64,000 bases of DNA, from assembly GCA_020849665.1 (NCBI GenBank), contig JADLFX010000031.1:1-64000 (forward strand). Direction: 5' to 3'. Position numbers and translations under genes: made by a program. This stretch comes from Planctomycetota bacterium (GTDB taxonomy: Bacteria > Planctomycetota > UBA1135 > UBA2386). The notes beneath the pieces are model-generated. The model had not been told where the DNA came from. It saw only the letters and a list, made by a program, of their open reading frames with translations, and did no database searches. Positions within the stretch are counted from its first letter, which is position 1. Each line of letters starts with the position of its first letter. Below are positions 2,691 through 37,263 of the stretch, one piece after another.

Positions 2691-3794
2691 ATGTGCACGC
2701 AGTCATTCGTTCGAGGTCTCGTTCCGTTGGCGTTCTACGGCGCGCTCGCCGCGCAGGGCGTCGTGGTGCCGGCACTGCCCGGCGTGGACGCGCCGGCCCG
2801 GGCCGAGTTTGCGGGCGTGACGCACGCGCAGCGCCAGCAGGTGCTCGTCGCTGGCCGGCATCTGCTCGGCCTGCGGGGCACGCCCCTGCGCGCGCTGGTC
2901 GTGCGGCGCGATCCCGGCGCGGCCGGGAGCCTGCGCGGCGGGGCGGTCGAGCTGGAGGTCGCGCTCTCGACCTCACCCGCGGATCCGGATGCGCCCGCGG
3001 AGGCGTTCGCCGCCAACCAGGGACCCGACCGCCGCGTCGTGTTCCAGGGCGTCGTGAACGTCCCGGACGCGCCGGCGCCCGGCGCATCCGTGGACCCGTG
3101 GGGCGCGGCGAGCACGGTGCGCGTCGACTTCGCGACGCCGTTCCCGTACGCGGGCGGCACGCTCTGCCTCGACCTCAGCGGGCGGCCCCTGGCGGGTTCG
3201 GCGAGCCCGTACTGGCCCGTGGACGCGTGGTTCACGCCCGGCGACGGGCGGGTCGAGCCGATCGGCGCCGGCTGCGCGCGCCTGCAGCACGACGGCGCCG
3301 ACGCCGGTGGCTGGGCATCGACCCTGCGGCCGGGCGCCAGCGCGGTGTTCGAGGCCTTCGCGCAGCCGGGCGCCAGCGGGTTCCTCCTGCTCGGCGCGCA
3401 GGCCCTGCCCGGCGGCCTCGACCTCGGCGCCGTGGGCATGGCAGGCTGCCGGCTCTGGGTCGATCCGGTCCTGGTGCTCGGCGCGACCTTCGCGCCGCTG
3501 CCGCAGCCCTTTGCCGTGGCCCAGGCCAGCGTGGCGGTGCTGGTGCCCAAGGACCCCATCCTGCTCGGCGCCGTGCTGCACGCGCAGTGGCTCGAGGTGG
3601 AGCTCGCGCTGCCGCCCCGGCAGTGGAGCACGCCCGCGGGGTTCGCTCTCAGCGGCGCGGTGCGCGCCACGCTCGCCTCGCAGGCCACCACCGCAGGCAT
3701 GGCCATGGTGGTGGCGGACTGGCAGCCTCCCGCGCCGCCGCCGGCGCTGGGCCTGGTGCAGCCCGCCCTCGCGCCGGTGCTCTGGTTCCCCTAG
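2691..3794 (+). CDS. Secreted protein with the recurrent C-terminal beta domain
   Basis: A 367-aa exported protein. The ATG at 2691 gives a short signal peptide (MCTQSFVRGLVPLAFYGALA). An earlier in-frame ATG at 2622 would add an Arg/Pro-rich leader and seems less likely. The middle part is beta-rich. The C-terminal third carries FLLLGAQALPGGLDLGAVG, then MAGCRLWVDP and later VLHAQWLEVE and GAVRATLAS. This order of motifs recurs in other secreted proteins of the window (for example 21473-23734 and 47305-48324). Its stop codon shares the palindrome CTAG with the convergent homoserine kinase gene. Function unknown; probably cell-surface or secreted. Confidence 0.75.
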   Translation: MCTQSFVRGLVPLAFYGALAAQGVVVPALPGVDAPARAEFAGVTHAQRQQVLVAGRHLLGLRGTPLRALVVRRDPGAAGSLRGGAVELEVALSTSPADPDAPAEAFAANQGPDRRVVFQGVVNVPDAPAPGASVDPWGAASTVRVDFATPFPYAGGTLCLDLSGRPLAGSASPYWPVDAWFTPGDGRVEPIGAGCARLQHDGADAGGWASTLRPGASAVFEAFAQPGASGFLLLGAQALPGGLDLGAVGMAGCRLWVDPVLVLGATFAPLPQPFAVAQASVAVLVPKDPILLGAVLHAQWLEVELALPPRQWSTPAGFALSGAVRATLASQATTAGMAMVVADWQPPAPPPALGLVQPALAPVLWFP

Positions 3795-27012: not shown

Positions 27013-28640
27013 CGGCCACCAGTCTGCGCGGCGTTGCGCCGCAGGACCATCCCCGGCAGGGCGTCCGTGTGCCTGCCCTGCTCCACGACCAGGACGCCGT
27101 TCACGACCACGTGCGGGATGCCCTCCGGAGCGCGCAGCGGCGCCTCGTACGTGGCGAGGTCGCGCACGGCGGCGGGGTCGAAGACCACGAGATCGGCGAA
27201 CATGCCCGCGGCGATCCGGCCGCGGCCCTCGATGCCGAACGCCGCGCACGGCAACGTGGTCATCCGCCGCACCGCCTCGGGCAGCGAGAGCACCTTCTGT
27301 TCGCGCACGTAGCGGCCGAGCACGCGGGGGTTGTTGCCGTTGCCGCGCGGATGCGGCCGGCCGCTGCCCTCGCCGCGGATGCCCGCGTCGGAGGCGATGG
27401 CCACGTACGGCTCGGCGAGGTAGGCCAGCAGGTCGGGTTCGGCCATGGTGTGGTAGACCATCCCGATGCGCCGGCCCTTCGCCGCGGCCGTGAGCCGCAG
27501 CACCAGCTCCGCCTGCGCATCCGGGTCCTTGCCGAGTCCGCGCAGCTCGGCGGCGGCGGCCACGGTCATTCCCTCCAGGTCGGGGTTGCCGGGCACCGTG
27601 GCGAGGTAGGCGTAGGAGAAGTCGCCGAAACCGACGCGCACCATGGTCTGGCGCAAGGCGGCGTGCATCTCCTTGCGGAATGCGGGATCGGCGTCGAGCC
27701 GCTCGGCGAACGCCTTCGGCCCGATCTCCAGCGCGGCTTCGGGGAAGAGCACCGAGAGGCCGGTGCTGCTCGCCGGGTAGGCGTAGACGTCGCCGGTCAC
27801 GGCCTGCCCGGCGGCGCGCGCCGCGCGCAGGCGCTCGACCACCTCGCGGCTGCGTCCCCAGTTGGTCTTGCCGCTGTTCTTGAGGTGCGAGACGTGCACC
27901 GGGATGCCCGCCGCCTTGCCGATGGCCAGCGCCTCGTCGATCGCGGCGAGGATCGCGTCGTTCTCGCTGCGGATGTGGCTGGCGTAGACGCCGCCGGTCT
28001 CGGCGACCACCCTGGCCAGGGCCACGAGCTCGTCCTGGCGCGCGTAGCTGCCGGGGACGTAGATCAGTCCGGTCGAGAGGCCGAACGCGCCCGCGGCCAT
28101 GCCGCCGCGCACCAGCTCCTGCATGCGGGCCAGCTCCTCGGGGCGCGGCGCGCGGCGCGCGTAGCGCAGGACCTGCTCGCGCACCGTGCCTGCGCCGATC
28201 AGCGAGCCGTAGTTCACCGCCACGCCCTTGGCCGCCACGGCGTCGAGGTGCTTCGCCAGGTCCGTGACCGATCCACCGCAATTGCCGGTGATCATCGTGG
28301 TCACGCCCATCGCCACGAAGTTGCGCGCGCGCGGCGCCTGCAGCACATCGCCATCGGCGTGCACGTGCACGTCGACGAAGCCGGGGGCCACGGCGAGGCC
28401 GTCGGCGCGCAGCACGATCCTGGCCGTGGCGCCGGCCAGCTCGCCCACGGCCGCGATCCTCGCGCCGGACACGGCCACGTCCGCGCGGCGTGCCGGCGCG
28501 CCGCTGCCGTCCACCACCGATCCGCCGGCGATCAGGAGGTCGTAGGCGGGAGCCGGCCGCGAGTCCTGGGCCGGGGCGGAGGCGCAGGTGCAGAGCCACG
28601 CGAGGAGGATCCTGGCACGCATGTTGAAGGCGGAGTGCAT
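27009..28640 (-). CDS. N-acyl-D-amino-acid deacylase (D-aminoacylase family)
   Basis: A 543-aa exported amidohydrolase. A signal peptide (MRARILLAWLCTCASAPAQ) follows either ATG 28640 or ATG 28622; the second would place it exactly at the start. The family signature is YDLLIAGGSVVDGSGAPA, the metal site VDVHVHADGD near residue 90 and ITGNCGGSV, the later ligand HVSHLKNSGK, and YHTMAEPD near residue 395. The C-terminal part ends with GRIAAGMFADLVVFDP. It hydrolyses N-acyl-D-amino acids or dipeptides with D-residues, useful in recycling cell-wall or foreign peptides. Confidence 0.88.
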   Translation of the reverse strand: MHSAFNMRARILLAWLCTCASAPAQDSRPAPAYDLLIAGGSVVDGSGAPARRADVAVSGARIAAVGELAGATARIVLRADGLAVAPGFVDVHVHADGDVLQAPRARNFVAMGVTTMITGNCGGSVTDLAKHLDAVAAKGVAVNYGSLIGAGTVREQVLRYARRAPRPEELARMQELVRGGMAAGAFGLSTGLIYVPGSYARQDELVALARVVAETGGVYASHIRSENDAILAAIDEALAIGKAAGIPVHVSHLKNSGKTNWGRSREVVERLRAARAAGQAVTGDVYAYPASSTGLSVLFPEAALEIGPKAFAERLDADPAFRKEMHAALRQTMVRVGFGDFSYAYLATVPGNPDLEGMTVAAAAELRGLGKDPDAQAELVLRLTAAAKGRRIGMVYHTMAEPDLLAYLAEPYVAIASDAGIRGEGSGRPHPRGNGNNPRVLGRYVREQKVLSLPEAVRRMTTLPCAAFGIEGRGRIAAGMFADLVVFDPAAVRDLATYEAPLRAPEGIPHVVVNGVLVVEQGRHTDALPGMVLRRNAAQTGGR

Positions 28641-28898
28641 GGGCGGGGCGCGACGGTGTCCCGGTGAAAAATATTTCGCGGCGCCGAGAAACTCATCGCG
28701 TGCTCGGCCCTAGGTCTGCGCCGTCCGGGACCGAGCCTCGGCCACGGGCCGGACAGCCAGAACACGCAAGGTTCTCCACGTAGAGGCCGCCGGGCAACGG
28801 TGCTCGTCGTCCTCGGGGGCGATGTGGAGAACCTTCGTTCTTTTCTGGGAGGCCTCGCGCGGGCGCGGGCCGGGGAACGCCGCGCTAGCATCCAGGCC
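28641..28898. other. Divergent intergenic region upstream of the twin selenoprotein operon
   Basis: 258 bp with an AT-richer patch near 28664-28680 (GTGAAAAATATTTCG) that is unusual for this GC-rich window and may be a promoter core. A 12-bp inverted repeat follows at 28768-28835. No ORF of interest. Confidence 0.5.
28768..28835. repeat. 12-bp perfect inverted repeat
   Basis: AAGGTTCTCCAC (28768-28779) is matched by GTGGAGAACCTT (28824-28835). The arms extend inwards by a G-T and a T-A pair, and GAGG (28783-28786) can pair with CCTC (28811-28814). It could be an operator or a leader hairpin, ending 63 bp before the first selenoprotein start. Confidence 0.6.
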
Positions 28899-30050
28899 AT
28901 GGCGCGCACCCTCCTCCTCCACCCCCTCGTGCTCGCCGGCGTCCTCGCCGCGCAGAAGCCCGAGACCGTGCAGACCCCAGGCATCGAATGGGCCAGGGAC
29001 CTCGACGCCGCGCTGGCGGCGTCCCGCGCCGACGGCCGGCCGGTGATCGCGTACTTCACCTTCGAGACCTGACACTGGTGCAAGGTCCTGGAGCGCGAGG
29101 CGTTCCCGGACGCCACGGTCGTGGCACTGGCGCGGCGCGCGCACTGGGTGTGGGTGGATCGCGACCACACCCCGGCGCTCCCCCGACGATTCTCGGTCTC
29201 GGCGTATCCCTCGTTGCTCTTCCTCGGCACCGAGGGCGAGAACATCCACCGCTTCGCGGGCTTCCTCAACACCACCAGCTTCCTCGCGCCGTTCCGCGAG
29301 GGGTTCGAGCGGTACGACCGCTACCGCGCGGGCGCGGCCTACGACGCGCCGCCGCCGTGGCCGGAGGCTCCGGTCGCGGGCCGCACCACGCGGGTGCTGC
29401 AGGTCCCCGGCGCGGATGCGCTGCGTGGGATCGCCTGGCACCGCGGCGAGCTGCTGCTCGCGAGCCTCGGCGAGCTGATCGCGCTCGACGGCACCGGCAG
29501 GGAAGTGCGCCGCGTGCCGCTCCCGGACCGGCCCAATGCGTTGGCCAGCGATGGCGAGCGCCTCTACGGGCTCCACTACGGCTGGACCGCCGGCAGGCCG
29601 ATCTACGAACTCGATCCGGCCACCGGCGCCGCGGTGCGCCAGATCGTCACGCGCGCGAACGCCGACAAGCAGGCGTTCTCCGCCACGGGGCTGGCCTGCC
29701 ACGGCGGCCGCCTGCACGTGCTGACCGTCTCCGGAGCCATCCACGTCGTGGATCCGGCCAGCGGCGTGGTCGAGCGCACCGTGACCACGAGGCTGCGCTA
29801 CGTCTCGGCCCTGGCGTTCGACGGCCGGAGCTACGTGGTGGGGGGGCGGGACAGCCTGAACCGCGTGGATCCGGGCACGGGCGAGGTCGTCGGCTGCGTG
29901 CCCCTGCTCGCACCGGTGCGCGGCATGACCTTCCACGCCGGCGCGCTCCACCTCTTCGAACAGGTGCAGATGGGGTTCGACCGCAACCACAGGCCCAAGC
30001 GGATCGCGCCAGACTCCACCCGGATCCACGTGGTGGAGTGGCAGCCCTGA
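28899..30050 (+). CDS. Exported thioredoxin-fold selenoprotein with C-terminal beta-propeller; TGA at 29070 read as Sec
   Basis: The frame runs from ATG 28899 to 30050 with one in-frame TGA at 29070-29072. Read as selenocysteine it gives 383 aa with U58 in FTFET-U-HWCK, that is a UxxC motif where relatives have CHWC. Residues 1-19 are a signal peptide. The thioredoxin fold covers about 30-140, with the cis-Pro strand VSAYPSLLFLG. The remaining 240 residues are blade-like beta repeats (HRGELLLASLGELIALDG; YELDPATGAAVRQI; HVVDPASGVVERTV), probably a six- or seven-bladed propeller. A SECIS-like hairpin follows the TGA at 29085-29111. Standard translation would give a 57-aa fragment. It sits in an operon with 30095-31438. 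Likely a periplasmic thiol-disulfide oxidoreductase. Confidence 0.82.
29085..29111 (+). promoter_or_regulatory. Bacterial SECIS-like hairpin (first selenoprotein)
   Basis: GTCC pairs with GGAC, then a single U/C mismatch, then GGAGCGC pairs with GCGTTCC (one G-U pair), closing a 3-nt loop GAG. That is 11 base pairs. The loop starts 24 nt after the TGA and has G as its first base, both within the usual bacterial SECIS limits (loop about 16-37 nt from UGA, G among the first two loop bases). Confidence 0.7.
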
Positions 30051-30094: not shown

Positions 30095-31438
30095 ATGCGT
30101 CCCCGCGCACTGGCCGCCCTCGCGCTCCTCTCCGTCGGCCTGCCGCCCGCCGGCGACACGCCGCCGCCCGGCCCGCCCTGGCAGCTCACCTATGCCGAGG
30201 CGCGGCAGCTCGCGCTGCGCAAGGGTCAGCCGGTGTTCGTGTACTTCACGAAGACCTATTGACCCGCGTGCGTGCCCCTGGAGCAGCAGTTGCTGCCCGA
30301 CCCCACCCTGAAGCCCTGGTACGACCGCGTGGTCTGGCTCTTCGTCACCCGCAACTTCAAGGGTGACGGCGGCGACCTGGAGGCGCTGCGCACCCACGAC
30401 CGGTTCGGCGTCTCGTCCTGGCCGCAGATGCTGGTGTTCGATCCCTCCGACGACCGGGTCCTCGTGGAGCCGCCGCGCGACCGCAAGGGCTTCGAGCGGG
30501 CGTTCGAGCAGGCCGTGGCCGCGCACCGCGGCAAGCCGGACGCCGGAGCGGAGCGCGCCGCCGCGGTGGTCGCGGAGGCCAAGGCGCTGCTGGGCAGGCA
30601 GAAGTTGGCCGCCGCGCGCGACCTGCTGGAGCCGGTCGCCCGCGAGGAGGACCGGGCGGGTGTGTGGCTGGAGGCGCGCGCGCTGATGAACTCGTGGGCC
30701 GGCGCGCCGGAGCCGTCCCTGCCGGCACTGCTCGAGGACCCCGATCCGCGCGTGGTGGCGATCGCGTTGGAACGGGCCGCGGCGCAGCCGCAGCTGGAAG
30801 CGAAGCTCCTGGCGCGCGCCGGGGCGCTGCTCGGCGACCCCGCCGCCGACCTCGTGGTGCGCATCCGTGCGCTGCGGCTCGTGGCGAAGGCCACGCCCGA
30901 GGCGGTCGTCGACCGCGCCGCGGAGCTGCTGAAGGTCGCCAACGATCCGTTCCGCTACGAGGTCCTCGACCTCCTGGCGCGCCACCCGCGCCCGGCGCTG
31001 GGCCCGGCCCTGGCGGTGCTCTTCCGCGACGCGGGGGAGGCGGTGCCGTCGCGGAACCCGAACGTGCTGCGCATGCGGACCGCCGCCTGCCTGGCGGAGT
31101 CTGGCGGCACCGAGGCGATCGACGCGCTCGCGCCCCTCGTGCGCACCGCCGACTGGCGCAACGGCACCACCAAGGTCTCGCTCCAGGCCCTGGCCGGGAT
31201 CGCGCGCCGCCTGCCCGCGGAGCGGGACCGGATCGCGGCCCTGCTCCTGGACGCGTTCCCCAGGCCGGTTCCCGCCGAGCCCGCCAACCAGGCGCGGGCC
31301 AGCCTGGCGCTCGCCGCCAGCGTGCGGGAGGCGCTCGCGGCCGCGCGGCCACAGGCGCCCCTGCCCGCCCTGCCCAAGGCGTGGGACGAGGCGGCGCGCA
31401 CGCAGTGGCTCGCCGAGGTGCGCGCGGCGGCGCGGTGA
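30095..31438 (+). CDS. Exported thioredoxin-fold selenoprotein with HEAT-like repeats; TGA at 30260 read as Sec
   Basis: ATG 30095 to 31438 with one in-frame TGA at 30260-30262. Read as selenocysteine it gives 447 aa with U56 in FTKTY-U-PACV, a UxxC motif. Residues 1-20 are a signal peptide (ALAALALLSVGLPPAG). The thioredoxin-like fold covers about 30-150, with the cis-Pro segment GVSSWPQMLVFD. Residues about 165-447 are paired helices of HEAT type (DPDPRVVAIALERAAAQ; VVRIRALRLVAKATPEAVV). A SECIS-like hairpin lies at 30279-30299. It is the second gene of the pair (44 bp gap) and ends 19 bp before a convergent gene. Probably a periplasmic redox enzyme on an adaptor scaffold. Confidence 0.82.
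30279..30299 (+). promoter_or_regulatory. Bacterial SECIS-like hairpin (second selenoprotein)
   Basis: TGG plus GCAGC (with a single bulged A between them) pairs with GCTGC plus CCG, closing the loop AGTT. That is eight pairs, one of them U-G. The loop starts 25 nt after the TGA and has G as its second base. Distance and loop G match the first hairpin almost exactly. Confidence 0.55.
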
Positions 31439-31457: not shown

Positions 31458-32726
31458 TCACTCGTGGCGCAGGGCCTCGACCGGGTCCATGTTCGCGGCG
31501 CGCACCGCCGGGTAGAGCCCGGAGACCACGCCCACCAGGGCCGAGACGCCGAACGACAGGATCCAGTGCTGGGGCAGGGCCACGGTCGGCATCTTGGCGA
31601 AGGTCTCGATCAGGATCGGCCCGGCCAGTCCGGCGGCCACGCCGAGCAGGCCGCCCGTCATGCTCAGGACCACGGTCTCGACCAGGAACTGGGAGACGAT
31701 GTGCTTCTTCTTGGCGCCGAGGGCGCGGCGGATGCCGATCTCGCGCGTGCGCTCGGTCACCGTCGCCAGCATCACGTTCATGATCCCGATGCCGCCGACC
31801 AGGAGCGAGATCCCCGCGATCGAGCCCAGCACGAGGTTCCAGATCAGCTTCTGGGCCTCGGCCTCCTTCAGCAGCTCCAGCGGCACCACGACCGTGAAGT
31901 CCTGCTTGGCGTGGTTCTCGCTGAGCATCTCGCGGACCACGCGGGCGGTGTCGAGCACGGCCGCGGGGTCGGCCACACGGATCTTGATCTCGTGCAGCTG
32001 GACGCTCTCCACCTCCATGCTGCCGCCGGTGCGCTTCATGCTGGTGTCGCCGAACCAGGCACGCGACACGCTCATGGGCACGAACACGCACTCGTCGACC
32101 GGCGGACCCACGCTGCCGCTCGCGCGCCCCAGGGTCTCCAGCACGCCCACGACGGTGAAGCGGTCGCTGCCCGCGCGCACCGACTGGCCGATCGGGTTGT
32201 CCAGCGGGAACAGGTTCTCGGCGGCGAACGCACCCAGCACGCACACGTTCGTGCGGCGCTGGTCGTCCTGGTCGGTGAGCCAGCGACCCTCGCGCACCCG
32301 CATCCCCGTGACCGTCAGGTACTCGGGCGTCGTGCCCAGGACGTAGCTGGCCTGGTACTCCGCGCCCACCCGCATCTCCTTGTGCGTCTCGCGCACCGGC
32401 ACCACCAGTTCGGCCGCCGGCAGGGTGTGCTTGAACCGGTCCAGGTCGTCGTAGGTCAGCCCGTAGACCTGCGCCGTCCACACGTTGGAGCTGGTGTTCT
32501 GCTCCTGCACGTCGGGCTTCTTGGAGCGCAGCAGGATGTTGGTCGAGCCGAGCGCCTGGATGCGGTCCTGGGCCGCCTTGGAGGCACCCTCGCCCACGGC
32601 CAGCATCGCCACGACCGAGGCCACGCCGAAGAGCATCCCCAGCATGGTGAGGAACGCGCGCAGCTTGTGCAGGAGCAGGCTCTTCACGCCCATCCGCACC
32701 GTGCGCACCAGCTCGAGCAGGATCAT
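31458..32726 (-). CDS. MacB-like ABC transporter permease
   Basis: A 422-aa permease of the FtsX/MacB type: one N-terminal membrane helix (LRAFLTMLGMLFGVASVVAML), a large periplasmic domain (about 50-270), and three C-terminal helices (LVLGSIAGISLLVGGIGIMNVML; VVLSMTGGLLGVAAGL; LSFGVSALVGVVSGLYPA) ending with PVEALRHE. The coupling motif TERTREIGIRRALGAKK is present. The ATG overlaps the ATPase stop (ATGA). With ATPase, adaptor and outer-membrane channel it makes a complete tripartite efflux or export system. Confidence 0.9.
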   Translation of the reverse strand: MILLELVRTVRMGVKSLLLHKLRAFLTMLGMLFGVASVVAMLAVGEGASKAAQDRIQALGSTNILLRSKKPDVQEQNTSSNVWTAQVYGLTYDDLDRFKHTLPAAELVVPVRETHKEMRVGAEYQASYVLGTTPEYLTVTGMRVREGRWLTDQDDQRRTNVCVLGAFAAENLFPLDNPIGQSVRAGSDRFTVVGVLETLGRASGSVGPPVDECVFVPMSVSRAWFGDTSMKRTGGSMEVESVQLHEIKIRVADPAAVLDTARVVREMLSENHAKQDFTVVVPLELLKEAEAQKLIWNLVLGSIAGISLLVGGIGIMNVMLATVTERTREIGIRRALGAKKKHIVSQFLVETVVLSMTGGLLGVAAGLAGPILIETFAKMPTVALPQHWILSFGVSALVGVVSGLYPAVRAANMDPVEALRHE

Positions 32727-35481: not shown

Positions 35482-37263
35482 CTACCGCACGTCCGGCCTG
35501 CCCGGCGATTCCCCCGGGACGGCGGCCAGGTCGTCAGGCGCCGGAGCCGGTCCGGTTCCGGGCCGCACGGGCGATCCCATCGCAGCGCGAGGTTCGGGAC
35601 CGCGGGCCAGCGGGGATCGCTGGTCCGCGCCCGCCGGAGTGCCGTGCCGGGCCAGCTCCGGCCGCGGTCCCGTCGGGATCGGCAGGCCGGGGTCGTACCG
35701 CAGCCCCTTGGGCTCGAGCACGAGGCCCTCGAGGTCGCGCAGCAGGTTCAGCCGCGCCACGGCGTGATCGATCAGTGCCCCGGTGAGCTGGAGCTGGGAC
35801 TGCAGCAGCGACTCCTGCGCGTCGAGGAGGTCCAGGGCGGTGGAGCGGCCGGCGGCGTAGAGGTCGCGCGTGCTCTCCACGCGGCGCTCGGAGAGGATCA
35901 GCGCGCGGCTCTGGATCTCGTAGCTCGCCGCGGTCCGGCGGATGTTGCGCAGGGCCTCGCGCACCTCCTGCTTGATGGTGTCCTCGAGCTGTTCGCGCGA
36001 ACGGATCGCCACGTCCATGTCGATCAGCGCGGCGCGGTAGGCGTTGCGCTGCGGCAGGCGGTCGATCGCCAGGTCGATCTGGAAGCCGGCCGACCAGTTC
36101 ACCTTGCTCCAGTCGAAGCGGAACGCCTTGTCGCGATCGGTGGGCACGTCGGCGGCCGCGACCAGATCGAGGGACGACTCCAGCGCGTCCTCGGCGACCA
36201 GGATGCCGCGCCCGGCGTCCTCGACCTCGTCCACGACGTTGCGGTAGTCGAAGCGGCGCAGCAGCGCCAGCTCGATCGCCTTAGGCTCCTCCAGCGCGAT
36301 CAGCGGGGCGCCATCGGCGCGCAGGTGCTCGAGCTCGCGGATGTCGAGCGTGAGCTGCGCATCGGTGGGCAGTCCCAGGAGCACGCGGAAGCGGTCCAGC
36401 GTGCTCTCCAGCTGGGCGCGTGCGGTGACCAGGCGGTCGTTGGCCGAGAGCTCGTCCTGGCGGGCGCGGTCCAGATCCACGCTGGTGCGACGCCCCGCCT
36501 CGGCCAGGGCCTCGGTCTGCTCGCGGTTCTGCCGCAGGTTGACGGCGTTGGCCTCCTCGTTGCGCAGGTTGTCCATCTGCTCGAGCACCCGGTAGTACTC
36601 GGTCACCACCCGCACGGCCTGCGTGGCGCGGAAGCGCTCGTAGTCGCGCACCTGGTAGATCACGTTGCGCTCGGCCTGGGTGAGCGGCTCGCGGGCCACG
36701 GCCTTGCCGGCACCGGCGAGCAGGGGCTGGGTGATCGAGAGCGAGAGCAGCGAGCTCGGGTCCCAGCCGTTGGCCCCGGACACCAGGTTCTTCAGCCAGT
36801 TGTTCACGAAGCCGACGACGATGTTGGCCCCGGACTCGGTGTTGCGGGAGGCGCGCAGCTGGTTGCGCAGGGAGAGCACGGCCTCGTCATCGCCGACGCC
36901 GGTGACCTCCTCGGTGCCGGTGAAGGACCAGCGGGTGCTGAAGTTCCACTCCTGCTGGGTGAGTGCCAGACCCACCAGATAGAGCTGTTCCTTCTGGCGC
37001 TGGAACTCGCGGCTGTTCTCCGCGGCGATGTCGAGGGCCTGGGCGATCGTGACCACCATCGGCGTGCTGGCGGCCAGGATGCGCTTGCGCAGGGTGTCGA
37101 CGGGCCGTTCCAGGCGTTCCACCCGGCTCTCCCCGGTCACGCTGCGGCTGACGTTCTCCAGGAGGCCGTAGACCTGCTGGTCGGCGTCGTCCTTGTAGTC
37201 GGAGGGCGAGCAGCCGAGGAGCAGGGCGGAAGCGGGGAGGGGGAGGAGCAGGCGGCGGAACAA
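35482..37263 (-). CDS. TolC-like outer-membrane efflux lipoprotein
   Basis: A 593-aa outer-membrane channel protein. The lipobox is LLLGC at residues 14-18. Two TolC-type helical/barrel repeats are visible (QALDIAAENSREFQRQKEQL; LGLPTDAQLTLDIRELEHLR; RNAYRAALIDMDVAIRSREQ), with alternation of long coiled-coil helices and short beta strands. The last 60 residues are Pro/Arg-rich. The start is TTG at 37263, needed to include the signal and lipobox. It is the first gene of the efflux operon, 22 bp before the adaptor gene. Confidence 0.88.
   Translation of the reverse strand: MFRRLLLPLPASALLLGCSPSDYKDDADQQVYGLLENVSRSVTGESRVERLERPVDTLRKRILAASTPMVVTIAQALDIAAENSREFQRQKEQLYLVGLALTQQEWNFSTRWSFTGTEEVTGVGDDEAVLSLRNQLRASRNTESGANIVVGFVNNWLKNLVSGANGWDPSSLLSLSITQPLLAGAGKAVAREPLTQAERNVIYQVRDYERFRATQAVRVVTEYYRVLEQMDNLRNEEANAVNLRQNREQTEALAEAGRRTSVDLDRARQDELSANDRLVTARAQLESTLDRFRVLLGLPTDAQLTLDIRELEHLRADGAPLIALEEPKAIELALLRRFDYRNVVDEVEDAGRGILVAEDALESSLDLVAAADVPTDRDKAFRFDWSKVNWSAGFQIDLAIDRLPQRNAYRAALIDMDVAIRSREQLEDTIKQEVREALRNIRRTAASYEIQSRALILSERRVESTRDLYAAGRSTALDLLDAQESLLQSQLQLTGALIDHAVARLNLLRDLEGLVLEPKGLRYDPGLPIPTGPRPELARHGTPAGADQRSPLARGPEPRAAMGSPVRPGTGPAPAPDDLAAVPGESPGRPDVR

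Follow-up and report, generated by a model that had tools for sequence, protein, structure and literature searches.

The window (the whole 64 kb stretch of DNA that was analysed) contains a gene, here called gene 1, in which a single in-frame TGA at 29070-29072 is, on the comparison of homologous sequences, almost certainly decoded as selenocysteine (Sec). Taken jointly, this reading and a redox role outside the cytoplasm are very likely. Gene 1 represents a new family within a known kind of protein, the UxxC thioredoxin-fold selenoproteins, and its architecture, a thioredoxin-fold domain followed by a beta-propeller, is absent from the catalogues searched. Its features are as follows.

28899..30050, plus strand: gene 1, thioredoxin-fold/propeller selenoprotein (predicted to be exported) of 383 aa; single frame with one internal TGA
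28899..28952, plus strand: predicted export signal at the N-terminus, MARTLLLHPLVLAGVLAA, recognised by visual inspection
28980..29327, plus strand: thioredoxin-fold domain, residues 28-143 (Pfam matches, solved relatives, model; in the model the fold covers about residues 31-143)
29070..29072, plus strand: UGA, codon 58, predicted Sec58 of UHWC (TGA in nine of nine Sec orthologues; Cys in L093 and L096)
29208..29210, plus strand: cis-Pro codon, Pro104 of AYPSLL (invariant alignment column P104; cis geometry inferred from the fold)
29376..30047, plus strand: C-terminal beta-propeller, residues about 160-383 (about 22 model strands; Foldseek PDB matches)

The frame of gene 1 runs from the ATG at 28899 to a TGA stop at 30048-30050 and includes one internal stop, the TGA that occupies the first redox position of UHWC. 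In translation, the active-site context reads VIAYFTFET-U-HWC-KVLE, with the resolving Cys61 encoded at 29079-29081; beyond this site, the frame continues through the cis-Pro strand and into the C-terminal propeller. The original prediction had described a single TGA in an otherwise open frame, located where a thioredoxin-like motif has its first redox residue and followed in the same frame by a cis-Pro strand (here AYPSLL) and a propeller (here from about residue 160), and all of these points were borne out. It was also correct in expecting a 57-aa stub from automatic annotation, as 57 codons precede the TGA. Under the standard code, the region yields separate ORFs at 28800-29072 and 29121-30050, which is what would be seen if the TGA were a true stop that ends a 57-aa stub or a decayed gene, with a separate propeller gene behind it and the match of frame being residual.

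These alternatives raise a key question: is the TGA a stop codon or a Sec codon? Relatives were collected from the same order (L048-L050), from named Planctomycetota MAGs (L054-L058) and across the phylum (L089-L097). Some of them are duplicates: L056-L058 are the genes of L048-L050, L089 and L090 match L054 and L055, and L091 and L092 are the genes of L049 and the window. There are nine distinct full-length Sec members (the window gene, L054, L055, L056, L057, L058, L094, L095 and L097), in every one of which the TGA falls on the same codon, and the identity of the Sec orthologues to the window protein is 35-42% where computed. The patterns used to find L054-L058 left out the Sec codon, so TGA was not selected for. 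Two full-length Cys homologues, L093 and L096, which belong to one genus, have an uninterrupted frame with TGC or TGT at the Sec codon (FFTFNTCVWC, that is, a CVWC motif); they form one supported clade in a tree whose other inner branches are weak. In a six-sequence alignment, Sec58, Trp60, Cys61 and Pro104 are invariant, and both flanks of the UGA are conserved in one frame. Alignment of homologues had been proposed as a check, and the position holds Sec or Cys only, never an unrelated residue; this exchange of Sec and Cys at the TGA codon all but settles that the TGA is read as Sec. Conversely, a true stop is difficult to reconcile with the retention of this TGA, between strongly conserved flanks, across nine genomes in which identity is about 35-42%, with Cys at this codon in two genomes and with the full Sec machinery of the genome (see below), and we consider it highly improbable.

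A further alternative to Sec is an error in sequencing or assembly, or a changed meaning of TGA throughout the genome, with Trp or Gly as examples of the new residue; in its favor, the named assemblies are MAGs. However, independent assemblies are concordant, the exchange residue is Cys rather than Trp or Gly, and tRNA-Sec, SelA, SelB and SelD are all encoded in the genome. Moreover, gene 1 has TGA as its own stop codon, and when both strands of the whole 64 kb were scanned by codon usage, just two TGAs, at 29070 and 30260, proved to lie between stretches of coding sequence. An error or a reassignment is thus extremely improbable. The TGA of the orthologues, the Cys homologues and the 64-kb scan together led us to reject a true stop, a sequencing error and genome-wide reassignment in favor of Sec.

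Several other observations were made on the homologues. One Sec orthologue (L050/L058, G126:C374) contains, beside the Sec TGA, a TAG that interrupts the frame where the putative signal region ends; this TAG is probably a MAG error or a sign of another start. Recoding of UAG in the family-search matches marked as having TAG inside was rejected; in L032, the one that was read out, the TAG is an ordinary gene end. The gene neighborhoods of L055, L057 and L058, inspected by eye, are not alike and show no obvious conserved context, and a search for spread by plasmids gave no match.

The genome that holds the window (G000; 5.24 Mb, 95% complete) was searched for selA, selB, selD and tRNA-Sec, as the original prediction had suggested, and all four were found, so the Sec reading is not refuted on that ground. 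The scores were 398.6 bits for SelA, 325.9 bits for SelB (cut-off 242), 366.9 bits for SelD and 75.4 bits for tRNA-Sec (gathering score 47), the anticodon of the latter being TCA. SelB scored above the cut-off in 139 of the 154 genomes of the planctomycete order and in 52 of the 53 high-quality ones; it was also found in seven further family-carrying genomes tested, including two with the Cys form, and in every searched genome with a Sec orthologue of gene 1. The Sec codon of the SelD gene of G000 is likewise a TGA (SGUAAK; L001 2667-3716, G000:C104), and this gene lies directly after that of SelA. In the same taxonomic family, a thioredoxin-like gene with TGA at WUGPC (L029, G014:C155) comes from a MAG of 81% completeness in which SelB had no match.

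The second TGA revealed by the scan lies in a gene that directly follows gene 1 and that also appears to encode a selenoprotein.

30095..31438, plus strand: gene 2, predicted selenoprotein of 447 aa with a Thioredoxin_7 domain and a C-terminal alpha-repeat
30260..30262, plus strand: UGA, predicted Sec56 of YUPAC in gene 2 (TGA homologues and a Cys homologue)

The N-terminus of the gene 2 product carries an apparent export signal, while weak evidence points to an alpha-repeat of the HEAT/TPR-like type at the C-terminus. TGA is present at its Sec codon in eight homologues (L065-L069 and L071-L073), and Cys is present in one, L070 (YCPHC). A related subfamily with an SRSYAPUGPC-like motif likewise has Sec members (L074-L077 and L082) and a Cys member (L081). 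A third TGA-containing thioredoxin-like gene of G000, L084 (G000:C35, minus strand, locus position 3370; SRSYAHUGPC), belongs to the same subfamily as L074-L077. Gene 2 starts 44 bp past gene 1 on the same strand, and the two are flanked by minus-strand genes, one starting at 28640 and the other ending at 31458; this arrangement looks like a two-gene operon, and genes 1 and 2 are probably co-transcribed. In G279 and G240, both genes are present but on different contigs, and adjacency was seen only in the window genome; it may therefore be lineage-specific. The original prediction had thus reached the Sec reading, which stands, but it had missed the second selenoprotein gene downstream, the N-terminal export signal and the nature of both domains.

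Another question is whether the UGA codons are followed by suitable RNA structures. The bSECIS model places a hairpin 16-37 nt past the UGA with a G within the first two loop positions (PMC13188914). Candidate hairpins that fit this model follow both UGA codons, and an inverted repeat lies upstream of gene 1.

29085..29111, plus strand: candidate bSECIS hairpin of gene 1; apical loop GAG, 24 nt past the UGA, 7-bp upper stem
30279..30299, plus strand: candidate SECIS hairpin of gene 2; loop AGUU, 25 nt past the UGA
28768..28835, no strand assigned: inverted repeat with perfectly matched 12-bp arms, AAGGTTCTCCAC and GTGGAGAACCTT, separated by 44 nt; fold z = -4.2 against shuffles

Compared with synonymous recodings, the energy of the gene 1 hairpin has z = -2.5 and that of the gene 2 hairpin z = -0.2, which is weak alone; low hairpin z-scores also occur in two of three Cys homologues. 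The model is fitted by nine of nine Sec genes and neither of the two Cys genes in the gene 1 family, but 45-46% of control codons pass as well; for the gene 2 family, under the same permissive criterion, the counts are 8/9 Sec and 0/1 Cys. The UGA codons of SelD and L065 fail the criterion as implemented here, although they are called Sec by other evidence. At 72% GC, the criterion admits too many codons for SECIS to be decisive proof of Sec, and the SECIS-like hairpins are regarded as supportive of the Sec reading. The inverted repeat, of which the genome has one copy, sits upstream of gene 1, in the intergenic stretch between the divergent genes, and an operator, an RNA element or a terminator are candidate roles for it. 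Elsewhere in the window, an ARAGORN tRNA-Arg at 35520-35613 (plus strand) falls inside a long minus-strand ORF (35482-37263) and has no match with the Rfam tRNA model; this call is probably spurious.

To what known proteins are the domains of the gene 1 product related? The N-terminus is hydrophobic and of the export type, the C-terminal half has a repetitive sequence, and the orthologue L055 has a lipoprotein-type signal (LMLVAC). The thioredoxin domain passes the gathering cut-offs (27 bits each) of Thioredox_DsbH (PF03190, 39.1 bits) and Thioredoxin_7 (PF13899, 38.8 bits), as it does in orthologues, and its nearest relatives by sequence are DUF255/DsbH-type domains (E 4e-10) and the DsbD gamma domain (E 7e-9), which are also its nearest solved relatives. 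Unlike DsbD, the gene 1 product has no transmembrane or alpha domain, carries Sec in place of Cys and is fused to a propeller; NCBIfam models for DsbD (NF001419; 30 vs 330 bits) and DsbH (NF043050; 23 vs 190 bits) miss their cut-offs by far. An AlphaFold model built from six sequences (mean pLDDT 87.3, pTM 0.79; residues 1-22 at low confidence) consists of a thioredoxin fold followed by about 22 strands, and according to this model the propeller is probably five-bladed. Foldseek ranks the glutaminyl cyclase 3nok first among PDB entries, and 3nol and 2iwa score high too (TM 0.66-0.69 on the target). These five-bladed bacterial and plant enzymes share the overall propeller fold, whereas identity to them is only 11-17%, no glutaminyl cyclase Pfam family was matched at E up to 1 in the window protein and four homologues, and the gene 1 propeller is fused behind a thioredoxin domain.

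These relationships allow a function to be proposed. SelB and Sec-tRNA(Sec) would decode the UGA as Sec58, as comparative genomics strongly suggests, and the product, given a signal read by eye, would be exported from the cytoplasm. Judging by homology to DsbD-gamma and DsbH, the thioredoxin domain would most likely act in the cell envelope as a thiol-disulfide reductase or as a related thiol/selenol oxidoreductase. Sec58 would be the selenolate that attacks the substrate, with Cys61 as the resolving thiol that resolves the selenenylsulfide. The propeller would most likely be a non-catalytic module for substrate binding or docking that confers specificity. We moderately favor this combination of a disulfide reductase with a docking propeller. 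An unlikely but reasonable alternative is a selenoprotein of another type, either a peroxidase that depends on Sec or else an isomerase or sensor whose propeller is catalytic: an attacking Sec would suit peroxide chemistry, and the propeller is nearest to glutaminyl cyclases among solved folds. However, UxxC with a resolving Cys and the DsbD-gamma/DsbH kinship favor thiol-disulfide exchange, and the lack of a glutaminyl cyclase Pfam match noted above also argues against a catalytic propeller. Gene 2 probably encodes a second exported UxxC thioredoxin-fold selenoprotein, and the pair may share an extracytoplasmic redox task. More tentatively, and with considerable doubt, genes 1 and 2 could form a dedicated extracytoplasmic selenium redox pair that belongs, with other exported Thioredoxin_7 selenoproteins, to a larger set absent from the catalogues; two Sec-bearing thioredoxin domains would then operate in one pathway, with the propeller or the alpha-repeat tail as the substrate selector.

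The original prediction had not recognised the thioredoxin-propeller fusion, and this holds: no NCBIfam model reaches its cut-off for the gene 1 product, and the 2026 table of 119 prokaryotic selenoprotein families (PMC13188914) contains no thioredoxin-plus-propeller entry, the word 'propeller' being absent from that paper. Nor is such a protein mentioned in the passages searched of a study of selenoproteins in Planctomycetes (PMC4807772) or of one on new prediction methods (PMC12013277). The closest entries are the thiol:disulfide interchange selenoprotein (PF13098, UxxC) and other Trx-fold UxxC selenoproteins (PMC13188914 Table 1), with which gene 1 shares the fold, Sec at the first UxxC position, Cys homologues and bacterial Sec machinery, but for which, unlike gene 1, no propeller is listed. 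The window protein scores just below the PF13098 cut-off (23.8 vs 27), which orthologues pass, and PF13899 and PF03190 are the stronger matches. TsoB (NF045694) and Trx7/PDZ (NF041199) are selenoproteins that include related thioredoxin-type domains and give weak partial HMM matches to gene 1; with 34.4 bits vs 805 and 14.1 bits vs 300, respectively, the gene 1 product is not a member of either. TsoB combines rhodanese with DsbD, the motif listed for Trx7/PDZ is CxxU, and neither is described with a propeller.

Thus, gene 1 adds to the known selenoproteins a family with a thioredoxin-plus-propeller architecture that the 2026 catalogue (PMC13188914) lacks, and a second family adjoins it in an apparent operon. 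The use of Sec is near-universal in this planctomycete order, as the SelB counts indicate (139/154), yet standard annotation splits or truncates such genes. Since natural Sec and Cys versions occur in one phylum, the benefit of Sec over Cys outside the cytoplasm is directly testable.
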